Below, piece after piece: positions 16,716-29,144 of a stretch of DNA of 35,393 bases; position 1 is the stretch's first letter, and every line of letters begins with the position of its first letter. The stretch comes from Verrucomicrobiales bacterium (GTDB taxonomy: Bacteria; Verrucomicrobiota; Verrucomicrobiia; Limisphaerales; UBA1100). A model generated the notes under the pieces. The model was given only the letters and a program-made list of their open reading frames with translations. It did no database searches and was not told the DNA's origin. The stretch is from contig SYLI01000017.1 of assembly GCA_005809105.1 (NCBI GenBank), forward strand, positions 1-35,393, read 5' to 3'. Position numbers and translations under genes: made by a program.

Positions 16716-16791
16716 GGGGTCGTAGCTCAGTTGGTAGAGCACCACAATGGCATTGTGGGGGTCAGGAGTTCGAATCTCCTCGGCTCCACCA
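16716..16791 (+). tRNA. tRNA-Ala (anticodon GGC), CCA encoded
   Basis: The 76 bases fold into a full cloverleaf. The seven-pair acceptor stem includes the G3:U70 wobble, the identity element read by alanyl-tRNA synthetase. A GCTC/GAGC D stem and a CCACA/TGTGG anticodon stem follow, the latter with a loop whose bases 34-36 are GGC. The T arm is AGGAG-TTCGAAT-CTCCT. Discriminator A73 is followed by an encoded CCA. It decodes GCC (and GCU by wobble), a common alanine codon in this GC-rich DNA. A T-rich stretch (16792-16799) follows, immediately before the stop of the convergent DUF1501 gene. Confidence 0.97.
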
Positions 16792-16800
16792 TTCTTTTTC

Positions 16801-18216
16801 TTAGCCCAGAACCTCGCGGATCACTTCGCCGCGCTCAAGAATGGGGCGTGGCCGGCCTTGGAAGTCTTTGACAATCGTGTGCGGTGCGATGCCCAGTGCC
16901 GAGTAGAGCGTGGCGGCGATGTCGGCGGGCGTGATGGGACGCGTAGTGGGTTCGGCCGCGTGCTTGTTTGTGGCGCCGATAACTTGGCCCGTGCGCGTGC
17001 CGCCGCCGGCAAAGAACATACTCCCGGCGGCTCCCCAATGGTCGCGTCCGCCGTTGCTGTTGATCTTGGGGGTGCGCCCGAATTCGGTGAGATATACCAC
17101 GAGCGTGCGCCCGAGCATGCCGCGTGCTTTAAGATCGGTCAGCAGTGCAGCAAAGGCCCGGTCCATCCCCGCCAGATGATAGCCGCGCCGCACCATGTCC
17201 TGTATGGGAGGATGGTTCTGCGTGGGCGCGTTATGGTTGTCCCAGATGTTGCCGTAGTCGGAGTCGTAGCCGTAGTCGACCATGACAAAGCGCGCGCCGG
17301 CCTCGACCAGTCTGCGCGCGAGCAGGCAGCGGCCGCCCAATTTCGTGCGGCCGTACTCCTCACGCACGGCGGGTGCTTCGCGGTCGAGGTCAAAGGCGTC
17401 GCGGATCCGGGCGTTTCGAGCCAGTCGCAGCGCGCTCTCAAATCCAGCGTCCTGTGCAGCCACCTCTGGCTGGCGATCCAGCCGGCGAAGCAGGGTGTCA
17501 AAACCTTCGCGCAGCCCGGCGCGCCGGTCGAGCCGGTCGCCCGTCAACTCCAGCGGCGCAGCCAGCGATTGAGGCTGCAGCTTTTCGTCGGCCAGCGAGG
17601 GCGGGTTGTCGAGTTTCTCGGCGACGGTGAAGTCCGGTTCGGCCGGCACGCCACCCACGCAGAATGGCGCGTGGTGCGCGCCCAGCCATCCGCCACGGAA
17701 GAAGTTGTACGGGGGCGGTCCGGGCCGGGTGGTGCCCGGCACGGCAATATAGCCGGGCAGGCCGCCACGCGGGCCGTGAAGGTGCGCAACGAGCGAACCG
17801 ATGTTGGGGTGCGTGTAAAGATCGCTCATCGCCACCTTGTGGCCTGAGAGCGTGTACACCTGACTCAGCAGATGGTCGTCGCTGTCGTGTGAATAGCTGC
17901 GCACCAACGCCAGCTCGTGCGCGACACGCGCAAGACGAGGCATGGTCTCGCAGAACTGCACTCCCGGAAGCGTGGTGGGGATGACACCGAGCTTGCCGCG
18001 AATCTCCGCGGGCGCATCGGGCTTGGGGTCAAACGAGTCGATGTGCGTCACCCCGCCGGCCATCCACAGAAAGATGACGGCGTCGGCGCGGGCGGCACCT
18101 GCCGCGGCGTCCAAGTGGGCGGGCAGCGCTGAGGCGGCGAAGCTGAGTGAGCCTGCGCGCAGAATATCGCGCCTGCTCCATGCGCGCCCCGGTGATGGAA
18201 ACACGGCCGCCTCCAT
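16801..18216 (-). CDS. Tat-exported DUF1501 protein
   Basis: This is a second, clearly different DUF1501 protein of 471 residues. The leader is SRRDILRAGSLSFAASALPAHL. The core shows VIFLWMAGGVTHIDSFDPKP (metal-site motif), RSYSHDSDDHLLSQVYTLSG, GGRCLLARRLVEAGARFVMVDYG, WDNHNAPTQNHPPIQDMV, VYLTEFGRTPKIN and GRDHWGAAGSMFFAGGGTRTG. The end ITPADIAATLYSALGI is typical of DUF1501. Periplasmic location is expected and the activity is unknown. No DUF1549/DUF1553 partner is adjacent; it faces the tRNA with a nine-base gap and diverges from a small secreted protein gene. The ATG at 18216 is used because the residues before it do not resemble a Tat n-region. Confidence 0.92.
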   Translation of the reverse strand: MEAAVFPSPGRAWSRRDILRAGSLSFAASALPAHLDAAAGAARADAVIFLWMAGGVTHIDSFDPKPDAPAEIRGKLGVIPTTLPGVQFCETMPRLARVAHELALVRSYSHDSDDHLLSQVYTLSGHKVAMSDLYTHPNIGSLVAHLHGPRGGLPGYIAVPGTTRPGPPPYNFFRGGWLGAHHAPFCVGGVPAEPDFTVAEKLDNPPSLADEKLQPQSLAAPLELTGDRLDRRAGLREGFDTLLRRLDRQPEVAAQDAGFESALRLARNARIRDAFDLDREAPAVREEYGRTKLGGRCLLARRLVEAGARFVMVDYGYDSDYGNIWDNHNAPTQNHPPIQDMVRRGYHLAGMDRAFAALLTDLKARGMLGRTLVVYLTEFGRTPKINSNGGRDHWGAAGSMFFAGGGTRTGQVIGATNKHAAEPTTRPITPADIAATLYSALGIAPHTIVKDFQGRPRPILERGEVIREVLG

Positions 18217-18306
18217 GGCCGCAGTATGCGCCTCACGTGTGGCCCGGCAAGGCCAAAGGCCACTTCGGGGCTTGCGCGGTGGGCACGGCACAGCCATGCT
18301 CGGAGT

Positions 18307-18768
18307 ATGCAATCACTACGGGGACTCCTGCTATGGGCCTTTGCCTCAGGGCTGATGTTGACGGCCCTTCGCGCAGCCGATGCGCCCACCGAGAAGGAAC
18401 GGTTCGACCAGTTCACCAAGGCGATGTCGGGCGTCAAGTTCTCAGGCCATTTCACCGTTGCCGGTCAGGAAGGCGCGCCGGCCAAAGAGGAGTACACCAT
18501 CCTCGAGGTGAAGAAACTCCCCCAAGGCGATCTGTGGCTTTTCCGGGCGCGGGTTAAATTTGGCAAGACGGACGTGACGGTGCCGATGCCCCTTCCGGTC
18601 AAGTGGGTGGGAAACGTCCCGGTCATCGCGATGGACAACGTGGCCATCCCGGGGCTGGGCACTTTCAGCTCGCACGTCGTGATTGAAGGCAACAAGTACG
18701 CGGGCACTTGGGTGCATGGCAAAGTCAGCGGGCACCTTTTTGGCGTGGTGGAAAAACTGCTCCCGTAA
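18307..18768 (+). CDS. Small secreted beta-rich protein of unknown function
   Basis: The 153-residue product starts with a Sec-type signal peptide (MQSLRGLLLWAFASGLMLTALRAADAP). The mature part (about 128 residues) alternates short polar and hydrophobic stretches, which predicts beta strands: EEYTILEVKKLPQGDLWLF, RVKFGKTDVTVPMPLPVKW, TFSSHVVIEGNKYAGTW, HGKVSGHLFGVVEKL. The pattern is reminiscent of a lipocalin-like or calycin barrel. It looks like an uncharacterised protein type shared by Planctomycetes and Verrucomicrobia, but I cannot name a family. The gene sits 39 bases before the large M28 peptidase gene on the same strand and could be co-transcribed with it. The coding nature is supported by the signal peptide and the tight fit between neighbours. 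Confidence 0.8.
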   Translation: MQSLRGLLLWAFASGLMLTALRAADAPTEKERFDQFTKAMSGVKFSGHFTVAGQEGAPAKEEYTILEVKKLPQGDLWLFRARVKFGKTDVTVPMPLPVKWVGNVPVIAMDNVAIPGLGTFSSHVVIEGNKYAGTWVHGKVSGHLFGVVEKLLP

Positions 18769-18807: not shown

Positions 18808-21741
18808 ATGAAATCAACGTGGTGGATTGGCGGAGCGTTGGTGGGTGCCGTTGCGATGACGACGGGGCAGGCGGCTGCTCCGGACGCACCAAAGGGCGAG
18901 GCCCAGTTTCTTGTCCGCACGCGGCAGCTAACGCTGGAGGGCAAGCGCAGCGGCGAGGGGTATTTCTCGCCCGAGGGCAACGCCGTTATTTTCCAAAGCG
19001 AGCGCGAGGAGGGCAATCCCTTCTACCAGATCTACATTCTCGACCTCGTGACGGGGGACACTCAGCGCGTGTCACCGGGCACGGGCAAGACGACCTGCGC
19101 CTTCTTCCGGCCGGGCAGCAACGAGGTGCTCTTTGCCAGTTCGCACACGGATGCGAATGCCCGTGTAAAGCAGAAGGAGGAGCTCGACTTCCGCGCCGCC
19201 GGCAAGCAGCGGCGTTACGCGTGGGACTACGATGAGCACATGGACATTTTCACCGCCAAGCGCGACGGCTCGGGCCTGCGCCGGCTGACCAGCCAAACGG
19301 GTTATGACGCCGAGGGGGCGTTTTCTCCCGACGGCAGCCAGATTGTCTTTTGTTCCATCCGCGATGCCTACGCCAACGACAAGCTCTCTGCGGCCGACCG
19401 CGAGCGGCTCAAGTCTGATCCCTCCTACTTCGCCGAGATCTACATCATGAATGCCGATGGCACGCAGCCGCGCCGCCTCACCCAGCATCCGGGCTACGAC
19501 GGCGGGCCCTTTTTCTCCCCCGACGGCCAGCGCATCATCTGGCGGCGTTTTTCCGAGAAGGGCGACACGGCTGATGTGCACACCATGAAGGTGGATGGCA
19601 CCGACGTGCGGCGGCTCACCGACTTTGGCGCATTGTCCTGGGCGCCTTACTTCCACCCCAGTTCGCAGTACGTCGTCTTCGCCAGCAACAAGGAAGGCTT
19701 CTCTAACTTCGAGGTTTATCTCGTGGACGCTGCCGGCGCCCGCCAGCCCATCCGCGTGACGCACACCGACGGGTTTGATGGCCTGCCTGTTTTTTCGCCC
19801 GATGGACGCAAGCTGATGTGGACGAGCAACCGCACAGAGAATGCCAAGTCGCAGCTCTTTATCGCCGAGTGGAATCATGAGGAGGCGCTGGCGGCCTTGG
19901 GGAAGGCAGAGCGCCGTGCGGTGGTGGCGGTGCCGGCAGTGCCGGGCGCCGCGGCAGGAAAACTCACGCACGAGCTGGCCACGGCGGATTTTCGCGCGCA
20001 GTCAGAGGTGTTGGCTTCCGATGAGATGGAAGGGCGCCTCACCGGCACCGATGGCTCGCGCAAGGCGGCCGAGTACATCGTCTCGCGCTTGCGCGATTTG
20101 GGATTGCAGCCGCGCGGCGACAACGGAACTTTTTATCAGCGCGTGCCCTTCAAGTTTGGGGTGGATGTCATCAAGGAGCGCAATGAGCTCATCGTCACCG
20201 GCAAGGATGGGCGCGAGACCCGTTTTGAGGTTGAGAAGGACTACTCGCCGCTCTCGTTCACTTCGAATGACAACGCCACGGCCGGAGTGGTGTTTGGCGG
20301 CTATGGCATTTCGGTGGCTGGCAACGCGGGCGAAGGCTACGATTCCTACGCGGGACTCAACTGCACCAACAAGGTGGTGATGGTGCTGCGCTATGTGCCC
20401 GAAGGCGTGGAGGCCAAGCGGCGCGAAAAACTGCTCGCCAACGCGGCGCTGCAGTTTAAAGGCCTTCTCGCCCGGCGACAGGGAGCCCGGGGTGTGATCA
20501 TCGTCTCAGGCCCCAACTCGGCCAACGCCGGAAAACTCATCCCCCCCAACTACGACCGCGGCGCAGCGGGCAGCGGCATCGTGGCCATGTCGGCCAATCA
20601 CGCGGTGGCCAACGCGCTCATGGCGGCCGTGGGCAAGGACATCAAGAAGGCGCAGGACGAGCTGGACAAGGAAAACCCTCACTCACGACTTGGCTATGAT
20701 CTGCCGGGCGTCACGGTGCGTATGCGCGCAGCGGTGCGGCAGGTCGATCGCGAGGATCGCAACATCGTGGCTGTGCTCCCGCCGGGAGTGCCCGGAGCGC
20801 AGGACGAATACGTCATGGTGGGCGCACACTATGATCATCTGGGTTACAACGACGGCGGACTGCAACCCAAGGGCGGCAACCCGGGTTCCATCCACAATGG
20901 CGCCGACGACAATACCTCGGGCAGCGTCACCTTGCTGGAATTGGCGGCATGGCTGGCCGAACAACGCCGGCTTAAACCCCAGCAATTTAAGCGCGGCGTC
21001 ATTTTCTGTTGGTGGACCGGCGAGGAGCTGGGACTCCTAGGCTCAGCCCAATACGCCCGGACGCCGACGGTGCCCTTTGAGCGGACCGTCGCCTACCTCA
21101 ACTTCGACATGGTGGGCCGGCTGGCCGACAACAACCTCATCATTCAGGGCATGGGCACCTCGTCGGTGTGGAAGAAGGTTATTGAGAAGGCCAACGTCGC
21201 CGCCGGCTTTTCGTTAAAACTGCAGAACGACCCCTATCAGCCGACCGACATCACCTCCATCTATCCCAAGGGAGTGCCCTCGATTGCGCTCTTCACCGGC
21301 CTGCACAAGGACTATCACAAACCCAGCGATGACGCGCCCACGCTCAACTACGAAGGCATGGAACGCATCGCGCAGTTCTCGGCGCGGCTGCTGGTGGAAC
21401 TCTGCGGGGAATTGCCGCGGCCTGATTATCTCAAGGTGGAAAGGGGCGACCGCGGCGGCCAGCGCGACCAGTTGCGCGCCTACATTGGCACCATCCCCGA
21501 CTACGCGGCCGAACTGGAAGGGGTGAAACTGAGCGGCGTGCGCGCCGGCGGTCCGGCGGAGAAGGGCGGTCTCAAGGGCGGCGACATCATCGTGGAATTC
21601 AATGGGCAGAAGGTGAAGAACATCTACGAGTTTACCAGCGGGCTCGACAGCGTGAAGATCGGCAAGCCCGTTCCCGTCGTCGTGCTGCGCGAAGGCAAGC
21701 GCGTATCCTTGAGCGTCACGCCCGAGCCGCGCAACAATTAA
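18808..21741 (+). CDS. Secreted beta-propeller / M28 metallopeptidase / PDZ protein
   Basis: This 977-residue exported protein joins three parts. After a signal peptide (ends near residue 24), a TolB-like propeller (about 35-380) has repeated PD40 units such as AFSPDGSQIVF, FFSPDGQRIIW and VFSPDGRKLMW. An M28 aminopeptidase domain (about 395-890) is interrupted by a PA-like insert (about 470-630). Its two-zinc ligands are His674 (GAHYDH), Asp700 (NGADDN), Glu740 with the catalytic base Glu739 (GEELG), Asp767 (NFDMVG) and His837 (DYHKPSDD). A C-terminal PDZ domain follows (about 895-975, VRAGGPAEKGGLKGGDIIVEFNG). All catalytic positions are present, so it is expected to be an active aminopeptidase or related amidohydrolase in the periplasm or outside. 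The propeller and PDZ could hold peptides or partners. The start is fixed by a GGAGG site seven bases upstream. Confidence 0.94.
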   Translation: MKSTWWIGGALVGAVAMTTGQAAAPDAPKGEAQFLVRTRQLTLEGKRSGEGYFSPEGNAVIFQSEREEGNPFYQIYILDLVTGDTQRVSPGTGKTTCAFFRPGSNEVLFASSHTDANARVKQKEELDFRAAGKQRRYAWDYDEHMDIFTAKRDGSGLRRLTSQTGYDAEGAFSPDGSQIVFCSIRDAYANDKLSAADRERLKSDPSYFAEIYIMNADGTQPRRLTQHPGYDGGPFFSPDGQRIIWRRFSEKGDTADVHTMKVDGTDVRRLTDFGALSWAPYFHPSSQYVVFASNKEGFSNFEVYLVDAAGARQPIRVTHTDGFDGLPVFSPDGRKLMWTSNRTENAKSQLFIAEWNHEEALAALGKAERRAVVAVPAVPGAAAGKLTHELATADFRAQSEVLASDEMEGRLTGTDGSRKAAEYIVSRLRDLGLQPRGDNGTFYQRVPFKFGVDVIKERNELIVTGKDGRETRFEVEKDYSPLSFTSNDNATAGVVFGGYGISVAGNAGEGYDSYAGLNCTNKVVMVLRYVPEGVEAKRREKLLANAALQFKGLLARRQGARGVIIVSGPNSANAGKLIPPNYDRGAAGSGIVAMSANHAVANALMAAVGKDIKKAQDELDKENPHSRLGYDLPGVTVRMRAAVRQVDREDRNIVAVLPPGVPGAQDEYVMVGAHYDHLGYNDGGLQPKGGNPGSIHNGADDNTSGSVTLLELAAWLAEQRRLKPQQFKRGVIFCWWTGEELGLLGSAQYARTPTVPFERTVAYLNFDMVGRLADNNLIIQGMGTSSVWKKVIEKANVAAGFSLKLQNDPYQPTDITSIYPKGVPSIALFTGLHKDYHKPSDDAPTLNYEGMERIAQFSARLLVELCGELPRPDYLKVERGDRGGQRDQLRAYIGTIPDYAAELEGVKLSGVRAGGPAEKGGLKGGDIIVEFNGQKVKNIYEFTSGLDSVKIGKPVPVVVLREGKRVSLSVTPEPRNN

Positions 21742-21762: not shown

Positions 21763-23973
21763 TTACAGCCGCTGAAAGAGTTCGAGGAGCCGCTCGCGAT
21801 TGAATCCGGGCGGATCGTGGTCGAGCAGCCACTGCACATCCTCTTTCGCCGCGGCGTTGCGGCCCAGCTTCATCTGCATGAGCGCGCGGTTGAGACGTTC
21901 GCCGGCGGCCGTGGGGTCGAGCAGCAGAAGCGTGTCCAGATAGCGCAGCAGGGTGGCGGGCGGTTCGCGATCGTTGGAGATGGAAATGAGATTGCGCAGC
22001 ATGCGCACGATGATGGCGCGCTTAGTGGCCGGCTCCAGATCCTGATCGCGCAGCGGGCCGTCGCCCTCGCGCCGCGCCAGAGCCGCGGCCTCGGCGCGGG
22101 AGAGCAGCCGGGCGCCATCGTAGGCGTCGATTAACTGGACTGGTTGTCCCGGGCGGAGGTGGCCGACGACAAAGTGGCCGGGCAGGGGAATGCCCGCCAG
22201 CTTGAGCCCCAGCCGCTGGCCAATTTCCATGTAGAGCACGGCAAGCGTGATGGGGATGCCCTCGCGGTCGTCGATGACCTCGTTGAGGTAGCTGTTGGCG
22301 CGGTGATAGTAGTCGCCGCGGCTGCCGTGATATCCGTTCTGCTCAAAGAGGTGGCGGCCCAGTGCGGCGAGCTTTACCGTGGCATTGGCGTCGGCGGGCA
22401 GCGTGGACTGGATGTCCGCGGCCATGCCATCCACGAGGCCCAGATAGTGCGGCACGTCCACGTCGGGATTATCCAGGCGCGATACCAACAGGGCTGCACG
22501 CAGGAGGTTGATCTTTTCCTCGGGCTTGGAGAGCTCAGCATGCAGGTCGTTCTGCAGGGAAGTTTCGTGGAGGCGTTGGGCCAGCGCGCGCAGGTGTCGC
22601 GCCTGTTCTTCCATCCGGTCGGCGCGGCTGCGCAGCAATCCCTGCGCGGGGGCGGCATTGGTCTTGAGTCGAGCCATCAGCACGGCGTCCGCCTCGGCGC
22701 GGGGTTCCCATCCATCCACAGCCTTTGTGATGAGGGCGAGCGCTTCGGGTGTTGTGGCCAAATCGGCGAGCTGTGCGCCCGCACGGAAGTTTCTAAACTG
22801 CGCCTTGGTATCGCGAAACTTGGCCAGTCCAACTTTGCCGTGTGGCAAACCGCCGTCATCGAGCTGGTACGCAAGCTGGCCGTTGATGTGACAAATGATC
22901 TGCTGCTTCTCATGGCGAACTCGGAGCGTGTTCCAATCCCCGGGGCGATAGGCGGGGTGCGCCTGATCCTTGAGGATGACCCAGTTGAAGACCGTCGGGC
23001 CATCAAAGCGCGTGAGGCGCAGCTTGCCCGCACTCGGGTAGAAGCCGTAGTGCCGTTGGTCGCCATCGCTTCCAAAGACCAAGCCGGCCGCGCCCGCTTC
23101 GTCGTCGAGCTTGAGGGTCACTTCCAGCTCCTGCGCGCCATCGAGCTGAGCCGCCTGCCAGAGGCACAAGGCGCGCCCGCCAAAGCCGCTGCCTGGGTCG
23201 CTGACGCTGATGCGTCCTGCGCGCTGGCTCCAGCTTGCGCCCATCAGGGGCTGCCATTCGCGCGGGTTAAGGCGGCCCAGCGTGAGCCAGCGATCCATCG
23301 TCGTGGGGTTGGGTTTGTCCAGCAGGGGCTTGAGCGCGTTGATGGGCACCGCGAAACCCAGGTTGGCCGTCACCATGGATTTCATCGTCATCACACCGTG
23401 GACGTTGCCCTTCAAATCCAGCACGGGGCCGCCGCTGTTCCCCGGTTCCACGGGGATGGCGATTTGCAGCATGGTTCCCATTTCCATTTCCCGGCGGGCC
23501 GAGAGCACTCCCTGCACGACGCTTCCGACGAGTCCCATGGGGTTGCCGATGGCCAGAAAGGGCGCGCCGGTGGGCAGCTTGTCCGAATCGCCCAAGGGAA
23601 GCGGCACCAAGCCCGCCGCCTTGACGCGCAGCACGGCCAGATCGCGCTGGCGATCCCATGCGTGCACGGCTTCCACGGCCACTTCGCGGTTGTCGGCCAG
23701 TCGCACCTGAATGGCGCGGCCCTCCTCGATGACATGCAGGCAGGTGGCAATGAGGTTGGTGCCCACGACAAACCCCGTTCCTGAGCCTTCGCGCGCGCCC
23801 GCCCGGCTGGCGTGGCTGACGGTGACCACCGACGCCTTTACGCGCGCGGCAAGCGCTTCGACCGGCAGCGTTGCATTATTTTGATCGGCCGCCGCGCAGG
23901 TGGACGCGGGCTCAAGGTGGGCCACCCAGCAGGCAAGCCAGAGGAGGCAGGGGACGCGAAGGCCCGATTGCAT
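21763..23973 (-). CDS. Trypsin-like protease / lectin-fold / SirB1-like transglutaminase fusion
   Basis: This 736-residue exported protein has a signal peptide (MQSGLRVPCLLWLACWVAHL), an HtrA-type serine protease domain (about 38-220) with triad His80 (TCLHVI), Asp111 (RDLAVL) and Ser180 (PGNSGGP), and no PDZ domain. Residues 240-400 look like a concanavalin/DUF1080-type beta sandwich (GLVFGSDGDQRHYGFYP, WNTLRVRHEKQQIICHINGQ). A helical stretch leads to a SirB1/transglutaminase-like domain (about 470-640) with NSYLNEVIDDREGIPITL (560-577) and PGHFVVGH (598-605), then TPR-like helices to the end. In the SirB1 part the usual transglutaminase Cys seems to be missing, as in most SirB1 proteins. 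The combination is unusual. The ATG at 23973 is chosen because the signal peptide starts there. It converges on the M28 peptidase gene (21 bases). Confidence 0.88.
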   Translation of the reverse strand: MQSGLRVPCLLWLACWVAHLEPASTCAAADQNNATLPVEALAARVKASVVTVSHASRAGAREGSGTGFVVGTNLIATCLHVIEEGRAIQVRLADNREVAVEAVHAWDRQRDLAVLRVKAAGLVPLPLGDSDKLPTGAPFLAIGNPMGLVGSVVQGVLSARREMEMGTMLQIAIPVEPGNSGGPVLDLKGNVHGVMTMKSMVTANLGFAVPINALKPLLDKPNPTTMDRWLTLGRLNPREWQPLMGASWSQRAGRISVSDPGSGFGGRALCLWQAAQLDGAQELEVTLKLDDEAGAAGLVFGSDGDQRHYGFYPSAGKLRLTRFDGPTVFNWVILKDQAHPAYRPGDWNTLRVRHEKQQIICHINGQLAYQLDDGGLPHGKVGLAKFRDTKAQFRNFRAGAQLADLATTPEALALITKAVDGWEPRAEADAVLMARLKTNAAPAQGLLRSRADRMEEQARHLRALAQRLHETSLQNDLHAELSKPEEKINLLRAALLVSRLDNPDVDVPHYLGLVDGMAADIQSTLPADANATVKLAALGRHLFEQNGYHGSRGDYYHRANSYLNEVIDDREGIPITLAVLYMEIGQRLGLKLAGIPLPGHFVVGHLRPGQPVQLIDAYDGARLLSRAEAAALARREGDGPLRDQDLEPATKRAIIVRMLRNLISISNDREPPATLLRYLDTLLLLDPTAAGERLNRALMQMKLGRNAAAKEDVQWLLDHDPPGFNRERLLELFQRL

Positions 23974-23979
23974 GCCGCG

Positions 23980-23999
23980 CAAGATAGCGTGCGCTCTTG
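23980..23999. repeat. Interrupted inverted repeat in the divergent gap
   Basis: CAAGA (23980-23984) pairs with TCTTG (23995-23999) and GCG (23987-23989) with CGC (23992-23994), leaving TA unpaired on one side. It lies just upstream of the protease-fusion start in the 108-base gap shared with the DUF3500-like gene and might bind a regulator. Chance occurrence is not excluded. Confidence 0.25.
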
Positions 24000-24081
24000 G
24001 GTGGGCGAAGTCCAAAGTATCCCCGAAGAAACTTCCCAGTTTGTGCTGGCCAAAGTGGCGGGGCGGCCTAGGGTTTCATTC

Positions 24082-25092
24082 ATGAACACACCTTCTTCCC
24101 ATGCGCCGGAGCCATGCACCTGTTCCGGATTAAACCGCCGGGATTTCATCCGCCATGCCGGCACCGGGCTCGCCGTGGCGGGTCTGGCTGGCGCGGCCGT
24201 TGCCCCGGCGCTGGACGTCGCGCTAAAGCCCGTGGCCAGTGAGACGCTGGCGGCCACGCTCTTTAAATCGCTCTCGGAGAAGCAGCGCGCCTCGCTGTGT
24301 TTTTCCTTTGACCACGAGCTGCGCTCCAAGGTGGATAACAACTGGCATATTACCAAGTCGACCGTGGCGGACATGACCAAGGATCAGCAGGACATGGTGA
24401 AGGCCATCTTCGATGGGCTGCACAGTCCCGAATACCGTGAGACGGTTTACAAGCAGGTCGTGCACGACGCGGGCAAGGCTGGGTTTGGTGGCTCTGCCGT
24501 GGCGTTCTTCGGCGAGCCGGGCACGGGCAAGTTTGAGTTTGTCTTCACGGGGCGCCACGTGACGCGCCGCTGCGACGGAGATTCGGTGGCGGGCGCAGCG
24601 TTCGGCGGCCCGATTTTCTACGGGCACGCGGCCAAGGAGTTCAACGAGACGGCCGACCATCCGGGCAACGTGTACTGGTTTCAGGCCAAGCGCGCGAACG
24701 CGCTGTATCAGGCGCTGGATGGCAAGCAGCGCAAGGCGGCGCTGCTGGGCGAGTCGCGCGGAGAGAATGGAACTGACACGATCAAACTCAAAGGCAAGTC
24801 GGCCAGCATGGAAGGACTCCGCGTGGGCGAGATGACACCAGACCAAAAGGGTTTGGTTAAAAAGGTCATGGCCGACCTGCTGGCACCTTTCCGCAAGGCC
24901 GATGCAGATGAAGCGATGAAGCTCATCGAGAAGAGCGGGATGGACAATCTGCACATGGCCTTTTTCCAGAAGGAAAACATCGGCGACGACGAGACGTGGG
25001 ACGTGTGGCAGATCGAAGGGCCCGCCATGCTGTGGTATTTCAGGGGAAAACCGCACGTGCACACTTGGGTGCATATTCGCGAGACGGCGTAA
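24082..25092 (+). CDS. Tat-exported DUF3500-like protein
   Basis: The 336-residue product carries a twin-arginine leader (LNRRDFIRHAGTGLAVAGLAG), so it is exported folded. The rest follows the DUF3500 layout: an opening helix LSEKQRASLCFSFDHELR, MTKDQQDMVKAIF, the central FFGEPGTGKFEFVFTGRHVTRRCDGD, AAFGGPIFYGH, a second LDGKQRKAAL helix, MTPDQKGLVKKVM, and the end VWQIEGPAMLWYFRGKPHVHTWVHI. The histidines in TGRH and near the C-terminus (HVHTWVH) could bind metal, but no activity is known for the family. It diverges from the protease-fusion gene (108-base gap) and is closed by a strong terminator, so it is probably a single-gene unit. A Cys-rich start (EPCTCSG) before the RR motif is slightly unusual. 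Confidence 0.8.
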   Translation: MNTPSSHAPEPCTCSGLNRRDFIRHAGTGLAVAGLAGAAVAPALDVALKPVASETLAATLFKSLSEKQRASLCFSFDHELRSKVDNNWHITKSTVADMTKDQQDMVKAIFDGLHSPEYRETVYKQVVHDAGKAGFGGSAVAFFGEPGTGKFEFVFTGRHVTRRCDGDSVAGAAFGGPIFYGHAAKEFNETADHPGNVYWFQAKRANALYQALDGKQRKAALLGESRGENGTDTIKLKGKSASMEGLRVGEMTPDQKGLVKKVMADLLAPFRKADADEAMKLIEKSGMDNLHMAFFQKENIGDDETWDVWQIEGPAMLWYFRGKPHVHTWVHIRETA

Positions 25093-25112: not shown

Positions 25113-25143
25113 CGCCCGGCCCTGATGCCGGGCGTTTTTGTTT
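25113..25143 (+). terminator. Rho-independent terminator after the DUF3500-like gene
   Basis: A perfect eight-base-pair GC stem (CGCCCGGC at 25113-25120 with GCCGGGCG at 25127-25134) has a six-base loop and is followed by TTTTTGTTT. It separates the DUF3500-like gene from the downstream cytochrome-like cluster. Confidence 0.92.
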
Positions 25144-25206
25144 ACCTCGATTGAGGCAATCCCCTGCTTGTTTTTCCGGCGCAATCCCACCATCCTTCCA
25201 GGCGAG

Positions 25207-27837
25207 ATGAGTGCCTGCTTGCCGCTGCGGTTTCTTCTGTTCAGCGTGGCAGGTGTTGTGCTTTTGGCCGACGCGGCCGATGCGCCGCCTCGCGGCAATG
25301 CCACGGCACCTCTCGCAGCCGTAGCCGTCGAATGGAAGCTCGACGTGGCGTCCATTCCCAAAGGCCTCGTGCAGGTTCAGCTCGTCGAGGGCATTGGCGA
25401 GGACTGGACGCTCAAGGCGGGCAAGCTCACGGAAGCGTTCGCTGAGCCCGCGTTTGCTTTTCCCCATTTGCCCACGTCCTACGCCGCGGGTGGCGCGCGC
25501 GGCGAACGTGCCAGCCCCACGTTGCTTCGAGCCGCTGCGCTCATCAGGCTTCCCGCCGGCGAGCATCGCATCCTCCTGCGAGCCCGCTCGGCCGCGCGAC
25601 TGAGAGTGGATGGACGCATCGTGGTCTCCACGCCGTTTATTAAGCGTAACTCCAGCGGCCATGAAGAGCTTCCCACACTGCCGCCGCCCTTGACTCCCGA
25701 ACTGCGTGCGCTTCGGCTGGGCCATCAGGAATCGGTAGCCACGTTCATCAGCACTGGTGCCGAGTGTGTCTTCGCATTGGAGGCATTCCTAGGCGGCAAG
25801 AATCTCCGGCCGGAGCCGGCCGAACTTTCAGTCGGCATTGCTGCTAAAGGTGCCGAGTTTGTCCTGCTCTCGCCTGGAGCAAAGGTGCCATTTACTGAGG
25901 AGCAAGTGGACCAGTATGCCGAGGCAGCCCGACTGCGGCATGAAGAGGACGACGCCCTTCGGCGCCGCCAACTGGCGCAACGCGACGCGCCCTACTGGAA
26001 CAAGCGGCACCAATGGGCCCGCGATGTGTGGTCCAAGAAACCGCCGCGGCCGGTGCCCACGCCCACTTCGGGATGGGGTGCCCACAATGAGATTGACCAT
26101 TTCATCAATCACAAGCTGGCGGCCGCGGGGCGCCAGTCGCAGCCACTCACCACGGCCGAGTCTTTCCTGCGCCGCGCTGCGTTGGACATCAGGGGCGTCG
26201 TGCCGTCGCCTTCCGAGATCGCGGCCTTCCAAAATGATTCGGGCCAAGGCAGCCGGGCTCGGGCCATTGACCGCCTGCTTGCGGACTTGGGATGGGCCGA
26301 CCACTGGACGGCGTACTGGCAGGATGTGTTGGCGGAGAATCCCAATATCCTGAAGCCAACCCTCAACAACACCGGGCCCTTCCGCTATTGGCTGCACGAG
26401 GCGCTCTCCGACAACAAACCCGCGGATCGATTTGTTACCGAGCTCATTCTCATGGAGGGCAGCGCCCATTATGGCGGCGCGGCGGGATTTGGCATGGCGG
26501 CAGAAAACGACGCGCCCATGGCCGACAAGGCCCAGATTCTCGGTCAGGCTTTCCTGGGTCTACAGATGAAATGCGCGCGGTGCCACGACGCCCCGTTTCA
26601 TCCCACCGACCAACGGGACCTCTTTGGCCTTGCAGCGATGTTGAGGCGTGCCCCGCAGGAAGTTCCCGCCACCAGCTCGGTGCCTGCCGCCAGCGCCCGT
26701 GGCAAAGTGGAGGTCAGCCTCAAGCCGGGGGCGAAGGTGCCGCCCGCATGGGGATTTCACTCCCTGTCCAAGGCGGATGTTCCGCAGGAAATGCTGCGCC
26801 GGGCCGATGACACGCGCGAACGCATGGCGCTCTTGGTGACGGGGCCTGCCAACGAACGATTTGCCCAAGTGATGGCAAACCGCCTTTGGAAGCGGTATCT
26901 GGGCTGGGGGCTGGTCGAGCCGGTGGAAGACTGGGAGCACGCCCAGCCCTCGCATCCTGAGCTGCTCGATTGGCTGGCGCGCCAGCTTGTGGCCAGCGGC
27001 TACGACCTTAAACACCTCGCCCGCCTCATTCTCAACTCCCATGCCTACCAGCGCCAGGCCGACCCTGCCTTCACGCGCCCGGGCGAACCGGCAAGCCGGC
27101 TTTTCGCAGGCCCGGCTCGCCGCCGTCTTTCGGCAGAGCAAACGGTGGACTCGCTCTTCGCCATCGCGGGAAAGTCGATGGGAGTGGAAGAGCTGAACAT
27201 GGACTTGGATGGGCGGCGGCCCGTGACCGAACATTTGAACTTAGGCGTCCCGCGGCGCGCGTGGCAGTTTGCTTCTCTCTCCAACGAGCGCGACCGGCCC
27301 GCACTGGCCATTCCCAAGGCACAGACGGTGGTGGATTTGCTGAAAGCTTTTGGCTGGCGTGATGGTCGGCAGGATCCGGTCACCGACCGCGAAATCGCGC
27401 CGAGTCCGCTGCAGCCGGGGACGCTGGCCAACGGTGTTGCCGGCCGCCGCGCCACGCAGCTTTCCGAGGACAGCGCCTTCACCGAATTGGCGCTGGGCGC
27501 CCATGCGGTGGAGGGCCTGATCGAGGCAGCCTGTCTGCGCGTCCTTTCCCGAAAACCGACTGTCGAGGAAGCCGGAATGTTTAGCGAGTACCTGCGCGAG
27601 GGATTCACAGGCCGCGTGGTTGCCGGCGCGGCAAAAGCTGCACCGCGCCGCACGTATCACGCCGTCTCGTGGTCGAACCATCTGAGCCCGGAATCCACCC
27701 GAACCATCCTGGCGATGGAACGCGAGGCGCGTCTGGGCGATCCCCCCACAACGCGTCTGCGCGCCGACTGGCGGGAGCGTTTTGAGGACGTGCTGACGGC
27801 CTTGGTCAACTCACCCGAGTTCATTTTCATTCCATGA
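25207..27837 (+). CDS. Secreted DUF1549-DUF1553 protein lacking the PSCyt1 heme domain
   Basis: The 876-residue product has a signal peptide (MSACLPLRFLLFSVAGVVLLADAADA). An N-terminal region (about 30-220) looks like a beta sandwich, perhaps PA14-like (VQVQLVEGIGEDWTLKAG, LIRLPAGEHRILLRARSAA). It occupies the place where the PSCyt1 cytochrome domain sits in the related gene at 7132. DUF1549 follows (about 290-480) with FLRRAALDIRGVVPSPSE and a CARCH motif (456-460) before DAPFHP. DUF1553 is about 530-870 (TGPANERFAQVMANRLWKR, HPELLDWLARQL, ARRRLSAEQTVDSLFAIAG). A single heme-type motif remains. Its stop overlaps the next ATG (ATGA), coupling it to a DUF1501 gene, the usual partner. The start at 25207 lies beyond the upstream terminator; an earlier open stretch from 25138 overlaps the terminator hairpin and is not used. 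Confidence 0.9.
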   Translation: MSACLPLRFLLFSVAGVVLLADAADAPPRGNATAPLAAVAVEWKLDVASIPKGLVQVQLVEGIGEDWTLKAGKLTEAFAEPAFAFPHLPTSYAAGGARGERASPTLLRAAALIRLPAGEHRILLRARSAARLRVDGRIVVSTPFIKRNSSGHEELPTLPPPLTPELRALRLGHQESVATFISTGAECVFALEAFLGGKNLRPEPAELSVGIAAKGAEFVLLSPGAKVPFTEEQVDQYAEAARLRHEEDDALRRRQLAQRDAPYWNKRHQWARDVWSKKPPRPVPTPTSGWGAHNEIDHFINHKLAAAGRQSQPLTTAESFLRRAALDIRGVVPSPSEIAAFQNDSGQGSRARAIDRLLADLGWADHWTAYWQDVLAENPNILKPTLNNTGPFRYWLHEALSDNKPADRFVTELILMEGSAHYGGAAGFGMAAENDAPMADKAQILGQAFLGLQMKCARCHDAPFHPTDQRDLFGLAAMLRRAPQEVPATSSVPAASARGKVEVSLKPGAKVPPAWGFHSLSKADVPQEMLRRADDTRERMALLVTGPANERFAQVMANRLWKRYLGWGLVEPVEDWEHAQPSHPELLDWLARQLVASGYDLKHLARLILNSHAYQRQADPAFTRPGEPASRLFAGPARRRLSAEQTVDSLFAIAGKSMGVEELNMDLDGRRPVTEHLNLGVPRRAWQFASLSNERDRPALAIPKAQTVVDLLKAFGWRDGRQDPVTDREIAPSPLQPGTLANGVAGRRATQLSEDSAFTELALGAHAVEGLIEAACLRVLSRKPTVEEAGMFSEYLREGFTGRVVAGAAKAAPRRTYHAVSWSNHLSPESTRTILAMEREARLGDPPTTRLRADWRERFEDVLTALVNSPEFIFIP

Positions 27838-29144
27838 CGACGCCCGCCAATCCGTCCTTGTCGCGCCGCGACTTCCTTGCCGCCGGTGCGGGAGCAGCAT
27901 TGTGGCCGGCCGTGGCGGGCGCGGCGCCCGTAGCCACTCCTGCCAAATCCCTGCCCAAGGGCACTGCCGACCACTGCATTTTTCTGTGGCTGGGTGGTGG
28001 CGCGTGCCACGTGGACACGTGGGATCCCAAAGTTCGCGGTGATGCGAAACTCAAGAAGGCGGGATCCTACTACGATTCCATCGAAACCAGCGTGCCCGGC
28101 GTGCGCGTGTGCGAGCACCTGCGAGAGTCGGCGCGTGTGATGGAGTCGCTTGCGCTTCTGCGCACAGTGCATCACGACGTGGTGGACGAGCACGCCGCCG
28201 CCACCAATCGGCTGCACACGGGTCGTCCCACGAGCGGCACCATCGTGTATCCGTCGGTGGGTTCCATCGTGTCGCATGAACGCGGCAAGGTGGCTCCGGG
28301 AATCCCGGCGTATGTCGTGGTGGGGTATCCCAACTTGACGCGGGGACCGGGCTTTTTAGGCGCACGACACGGATACGTCTATCTGACCGACACGGAATCG
28401 GGGCCCGAAGGACTGACGCGTCCCGCGGAGATTCCCACCGCGCGACAGTCGGAGCGTGACCGCCTGTTGGGCGGGATGCGCCGGCGGTTTCTTGCCGCCC
28501 ATCCGCAAGACACGACGCTCTCCGACTATGACGCGGCCGTCGAGGAGGCGCAGTCGCTGACGCGCGGGGAGTTCATGAATGCCTTTCGTCTTGCGGACGA
28601 GCCCGGCGCGTTGCGAAGCCGTTACGGCGACGAGTTTGGCCAGCGCTGCCTCTTGGCGCGGCGGCTGGTGCAGCGCGGCGTGCGGTTTGTCGAGGTCTCG
28701 TTCAATCTGAATTTCATCAACGGCACCGGCTGGGACACCCACAATCAGGGACAAATCAACCAGCACCTACTGATACAGCAACTTGATGCGGCACTGGCGA
28801 CGTTGATCGCAGACTTGAAGGATCGCCGCCTGCTGCAACGCACGCTGGTGGTGGTGGCGACAGAATTTGGTCGGCCGCCAGAATTCGATGGCGGTGGCGG
28901 ACGCGGCCATTACGCCAAGGCCTTCAGCATCGTGCTGGCGGGTGGGGGGCTGCGCACGGGCCGCGCGGTGGGCGTCACCGATGAGCTGGGCAAGGTGATT
29001 TTGGAGCGGCCCATCTCGGTGCCGGATTTGCATGCCACCATCCATTGCGCGCTGGGCATCAATCCCGGCAAGGCGCTCAAGGCCGGCGACCGCCCTGTGC
29101 CCATCACCGATTTGGGCAGGCCATTGGAGGAGTTGTTCATTTGA
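27834..29144 (+). CDS. Tat-exported DUF1501 protein, partner of the DUF1549/DUF1553 gene
   Basis: This 436-residue DUF1501 protein is translationally coupled to the preceding DUF1549/DUF1553 gene (ATGA at 27834). The leader is LSRRDFLAAGAGAALWPAVAGA. The core shows CIFLWLGGGACHVDTWDPKV, RTVHHDVVDEHAAATNRLHTG, GQRCLLARRLVQRGVRFVEV, WDTHNQGQINQHLL, VVATEFGRPPEF, GRGHYAKAFSIVLAGGGLRTG and VPDLHATIHCALGI. Compared with the other two DUF1501 proteins here, the EFGR motif is followed by PPEF rather than TP, and the HH pair of the histidine-rich block is reduced to GHY. The family is placed in the alkaline-phosphatase clan and its reaction is unknown. The stop TGA overlaps a TTG start of the next gene (TTGA). 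Confidence 0.93.
   Translation: MTTPANPSLSRRDFLAAGAGAALWPAVAGAAPVATPAKSLPKGTADHCIFLWLGGGACHVDTWDPKVRGDAKLKKAGSYYDSIETSVPGVRVCEHLRESARVMESLALLRTVHHDVVDEHAAATNRLHTGRPTSGTIVYPSVGSIVSHERGKVAPGIPAYVVVGYPNLTRGPGFLGARHGYVYLTDTESGPEGLTRPAEIPTARQSERDRLLGGMRRRFLAAHPQDTTLSDYDAAVEEAQSLTRGEFMNAFRLADEPGALRSRYGDEFGQRCLLARRLVQRGVRFVEVSFNLNFINGTGWDTHNQGQINQHLLIQQLDAALATLIADLKDRRLLQRTLVVVATEFGRPPEFDGGGGRGHYAKAFSIVLAGGGLRTGRAVGVTDELGKVILERPISVPDLHATIHCALGINPGKALKAGDRPVPITDLGRPLEELFI
29126..29132 (+). promoter_or_regulatory. Ribosome binding site supporting a TTG start
   Basis: GGAGGAG inside the end of the DUF1501 gene lies eight bases before TTG at 29141, which overlaps that gene's stop (TTGA). The spacing is ideal, so TTG is preferred over the ATG at 29168, although the same bases also encode Glu-Glu in the upstream protein. 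Confidence 0.6.

Follow-up and report, generated by a model that had tools for sequence, protein, structure and literature searches.

A predicted exported HtrA-type protease fused to a concanavalin-like sandwich and a SirB1-type module in Verrucomicrobiota and Planctomycetota

Within a 35,393-nucleotide stretch of DNA from a Verrucomicrobiales bacterium (assembly GCA_005809105.1, contig SYLI01000017.1; the whole stretch is called the window below), a single gene joins an HtrA-type serine protease domain, a concanavalin-like beta-sandwich and a SirB1-type pseudo-transglutaminase with TPR helices, an architecture that recurs across two phyla and for which we found no description in the literature searched, the coverage of which was partial. 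Our preferred reading, to which we assign a probability of about 0.5, is that the product is an exported, active HtrA-type protease in which the pseudo-transglutaminase/TPR module, instead of PDZ domains, does the recognition, and in which the sandwich is a scaffold and possibly a glycan anchor.

Layout and distribution of the fusion gene

The gene lies on the minus strand, with its ATG at 23973 and its stop at 21763-21765, and encodes 736 amino acids with no internal stop. The original prediction of one exported open reading frame joining an HtrA-type protease, a lectin-like sandwich and a SirB1-like domain was confirmed by Pfam, NCBIfam and the relatives, with export predicted from the N-terminal sequence. 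Its parts, in window coordinates, are as follows.

21763..23973 (stop included), minus strand: whole gene, predicted exported fusion protein of 736 aa (open reading frame; full length kept in relatives)
23872..23973, minus strand: signal-peptide-like N-terminus, residues about 1-34 (sequence judged by eye; in relatives, low conservation with a hydrophobic stretch)
23308..23853, minus strand: HtrA/S1C-type protease domain, residues 41-222, triad His80/Asp111/Ser180 (Trypsin_2 at 65-194, 1.1e-28; DegP/HtrA structures)
22768..23304, minus strand: concanavalin-like beta-sandwich, residues 224-402, at the PDZ1 position (3keto-disac_hyd/DUF1080 at 333-397, 3.4e-6; profile matches to 4azz and 3imm)
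22528..22767, minus strand: variable linker and long helix, likely a coiled coil, residues 403-482 (length variation; model)
21994..22527, minus strand: SirB1-type module, helical lead-in and Transglut_core2, residues 483-660 (PF13369 at 510-660, 1.1e-40)
21766..21993, minus strand: TPR helices, residues 661-736 (TPR_9 at 673-733, 8.7e-10; helical in models)

Pfam detected no PDZ domain in the 736-aa protein up to E=1. Among the NCBIfam models, SirB1 matched residues 514-721, and HtrA-type models matched the first 220 residues with scores far below their own cut-offs. The AlphaFold model of the full chain reached a mean pLDDT of 86.4 and a pTM of 0.82, with low confidence in the signal region and the linker. 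Of the 79 named relatives, just one showed a lipobox-like motif at the N-terminus. A large plus-strand ORF (22144-23784) runs antisense within the protease gene.

In nine of 20 genomes sampled from the family, the window's own (2.99 Mb in 106 contigs) included, the match extended across the sandwich and on into the SirB1 part; a contig end truncates one of these nine. Matches at E<=1e-40 were present in 66/196 genomes of the order, and in nearly all of them one open frame covers most of the 736 residues. A phylum sample outside the order added six more genomes, all of one family. Among named genomes, 293 relatives were found, and of the 80 that were kept, 79 were full length on one ORF. By NCBI lineage these 80 comprised 46 Verrucomicrobiota, 32 Planctomycetota and 2 unplaced, with several titles that look like uncertain bin labels. 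Trypsin_2, 3keto-disac_hyd and Transglut_core2 were all present in each of 25 diverse members scanned with Pfam. An assembly artefact, in which relatives would carry the parts as separate genes and the junction an error, was ruled out because genomes of different families, in both phyla, carry the fusion in a single frame; the fusion is real. The sole exception among the full-length relatives examined was one locus (L139, G195:C147:4500-8600) with its protease-sandwich half and its SirB1 half in different frames and the change, either natural or an error, near the junction.

Protease and sandwich

Conservation figures were drawn from an alignment (A2) of 79 proteins, the window protein included, in which His80, Asp111 and Ser180 were identical in 79/79; the triad had thus been placed correctly in the original prediction, and this invariance and the signal-like N-terminal sequences together support its suggestion of an exported HtrA-type protease. 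With the full-chain model as query, Foldseek returned HtrA proteases, Deg1/HtrA1 being the best structural matches. The window protein has in common with HtrA/Deg proteases (DegP, DegQ, DegS, HtrA1/2; MEROPS S1C) the protease fold, the triad and, as predicted, export; unlike them, it carries the sandwich and the SirB1/TPR module in place of PDZ domains, and the ten families detected in the 25 diverse members at E<=0.01 likewise include no PDZ family. S1C domains without PDZ are already known: in Clostridium thermocellum RsgI9 (S1C-NTF2, 7sjy), an S1C-type domain is likewise joined to a non-PDZ domain, with the differences that RsgI9 is a membrane anti-sigma factor and that its partner domain is NTF2-like.

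The sandwich was matched by profile to a Bacillus subtilis levanase chain in the PDB (4azz, 3.7e-8), named in the database only as levanase and which we take to be CBM66, and to the DUF1080 glycosylhydrolase-like 3imm (1.7e-3). In the window protein, the 3keto-disac_hyd match scored 27.7 bits, just above the curated cut-off of 26.8, and the family was found at E<=0.01 in 25/25 diverse members. Fold and family thus agree with the CBM66 and DUF1080/3-keto-disaccharide hydrolase sandwiches; unlike those, this one is fused to a protease. At least 90% conservation was seen in 52 of its 179 columns, and the protease-sandwich junction (222-229) had a single length in 79/79 proteins. This is contrary to the linker at 403-445, which ranged from 13 to 48 residues and which the full-chain model rendered as a stretch of low pLDDT followed by a helix at 440-481. 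Because the first junction is fixed in length and the second linker varies, we infer that the protease and sandwich probably form one rigid unit, to which the C-terminal module is tethered. Mean majority frequency was 0.69 for the protease, 0.67 for the sandwich, 0.65 for the transglutaminase-like part, 0.51 for the TPR helices and 0.28 for the linker. A disulfide between Cys270 and Cys361 was considered and rejected: each Cys is present in more than 70 of the 79 proteins, but the losses are single (8 and 7) with no double loss, which speaks against a pair.

Glycan binding by the sandwich is plausible because its profile matches the levanase module and DUF1080 proteins, and it may therefore hold a glycan; joined rigidly to the protease where PDZ1 sits, it could equally be a plain scaffold, as such sandwiches also serve elsewhere. 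These same matches, along with a degree of conservation in the sandwich close to that of the protease, are what favours a glycan-targeted surface protease, in which the sandwich would bind polysaccharide like CBM66/LamG and so anchor the enzyme on the cell surface or on polymers used as food, with the SirB1 module as a generic protein-binding arm. We consider this somewhat unlikely, as the rigid junction is no less consistent with a structural role and no conserved polysaccharide gene was found near the fusion gene.

The HtrA family has a role in protein quality control, and a widely kept single gene without an operon partner would also suit a house-keeping HtrA active in general quality control of the periplasm, where the sandwich and the C-terminal module would do no more than build a larger oligomer or cage. 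DegP cages, however, need PDZ contacts, which are absent here; further Trypsin_2 genes are present in the same genome, among them one with a long frame of the classical HtrA-like kind; and the conserved residues of the transglutaminase-like and TPR parts, described below, point to a specific surface, such that we regard a house-keeping role as improbable.

SirB1-type module and its likeness to menin

At E<=10, PF13369 was found in the C-terminal part of all 73 sequences of set A3 and TPR_9 in 72 of them (best E-values 1.4e-48 and 4.6e-16, respectively), the same order of pseudo-transglutaminase then TPR as in other SirB1/Transglut_core2 proteins. No Cys is conserved in residues 483-736 across the 79 proteins, the best column holding 11/79 at position 493, outside the core. 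Asp616, His549, Pro574 and Asn560 are invariant, and His600 is present in 71/79, with Lys or Arg in the other 8; as read from the motif rather than from a computed alignment, Pro574 occupies the place of the transglutaminase Cys and 600 is the His position. The Cys-His-Asp triad of a catalytic transglutaminase is therefore lacking, and because no Cys is conserved the domain is unlikely to have this kind of enzymatic activity. That it is still an enzyme via an unrecognised mechanism (a hydrolase or acyl transfer without Cys) would suit the four invariant residues and the largely kept His600, but is very improbable given the missing Cys, the replacement of His600 by Lys or Arg, and the description of FBXO21, of the same Pfam family, as inactive (PMC10318531).

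Many genomes of the order carry a standalone SirB1 of about 300 aa alongside the fused one. In a tree with 13 standalone SirB1 proteins from the family's genomes, the fused domains formed one clade with support of 100/100, the sampled standalone copies forming a separate clade, a topology compatible with a single fusion origin without proving it. One genome (G066) holds a second, diverged copy (L140:795-2975, minus strand) in which the protease motif and sandwich are retained and the SirB1 part is much changed.

An AlphaFold model of residues 431-736 (pLDDT 91.5) was compared with the PDB using Foldseek, and all 50 matches listed were menin, with E from 3.2e-4, TMq of 0.35-0.51, 9-16% identity and an rmsd of about 7 A. 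Menin has an inactive transglutaminase-like thumb and a TPR-bearing palm, and its pocket binds MLL1 and JunD peptides (PMC8911756, PMC13256885). Human menin is the best PDB match of the module at a TM of only about 0.5 and 14% identity, and it is a nuclear scaffold without a protease. Membership in the menin family was not detected by sequence: the Menin family (PF05053) was absent from the 25 families listed for set A3 at E<=10, no menin chain was found among PDB sequences at E<=1, and no Menin family match was found in the own genome. The likeness that we claim is thus limited to layout. Together with the absent conserved Cys, this modelled fold match supports the original idea of a pseudo-transglutaminase serving as a binding module.

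SirB1-type proteins are found from E. coli to human, where FBXO21 is an inactive transglutaminase-like protein serving a ubiquitin ligase, and a 2023 survey gave the function of Transglut_core2 as unknown (PMC10318531). FBXO21 reportedly contacts ASK1 via its C-terminal coiled-coil/YccV-like part (PMC4887211). The domain legend of one figure, which spans several plastid families, the CLPF adaptor included, also lists SirB1 and Transglut_core2 (PMC8889267). These FBXO21 and CLPF-figure parallels are suggestive only.

Proposed mechanism and genomic surroundings

Under the preferred reading of a protease with its own recognition module, the protein would be an exported, catalytically competent S1C serine protease with its PDZ domains replaced by two other modules. 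The sandwich, set without slack on the protease at the PDZ1 place, would stabilise or position it, perhaps by holding a surface glycan, and the flexible linker and long helix would carry the non-catalytic SirB1-type module, laid out like the thumb and palm of menin. That module would then bind a peptide of a substrate or regulator and either deliver it to the protease or switch the protease on. The two-phylum architecture, the invariant triad, the fixed junction, the missing Cys, the menin match and the FBXO21 and CLPF-figure parallels argue for this reading as a whole, whereas the modest menin match with its lack of sequence-level support, the reported FBXO21-ASK1 contact through the C-terminal part of that protein and the drift of the SirB1 part in G066 argue against it. 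A broader proposal is that a Planctomycetota/Verrucomicrobiota clade of HtrA-type proteases replaced its PDZ sensors by a peptide receptor of the menin-like pseudo-transglutaminase/TPR type, that SirB1-type domains are peptide receptors of proteolysis, and that the module is a bacterial structural counterpart of the menin pocket; we put this forward tentatively, as possible and still doubtful.

A conserved natural fusion to a protease would offer an assayable read-out for the Transglut_core2 domain, in that the targets cut or sensed by the protease should be the ligands of the domain, and it would show that HtrA-type proteases are able to work with a different recognition module. As menin is a drug target, the likeness would also give a bacterial comparison for its pocket.

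The downstream convergent neighbour (window 18808-21741, plus strand, 977 aa) was assigned a PD40 propeller, an M28 peptidase and a PDZ domain by Pfam, and outside the window it keeps its position in nine close relatives only. No operon partner of the fusion gene was found, and because no partner is conserved across Verrucomicrobiota and Planctomycetota, the fusion protein probably acts alone. At one related locus (L060:9104-12073, minus strand) the frame of the M28 neighbour starts with GH32-type glycoside hydrolase-like sequence at a contig end, either a chimeric gene or a misassembly. Genes for DUF1501 proteins and one for a DUF1549/DUF1553 protein lie on either side of the locus (window 16801-18312, minus strand, and 25138-29144, plus strand). 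At its 5' end, a DUF3500 frame (window 23812-25092, plus strand) covers the start of the antiparallel protease gene, and its true start probably lies further in. A tRNA-Ala (ggc) lies at window 16716-16791 on the plus strand and shares sequence with a spurious ORF that runs from 16747.
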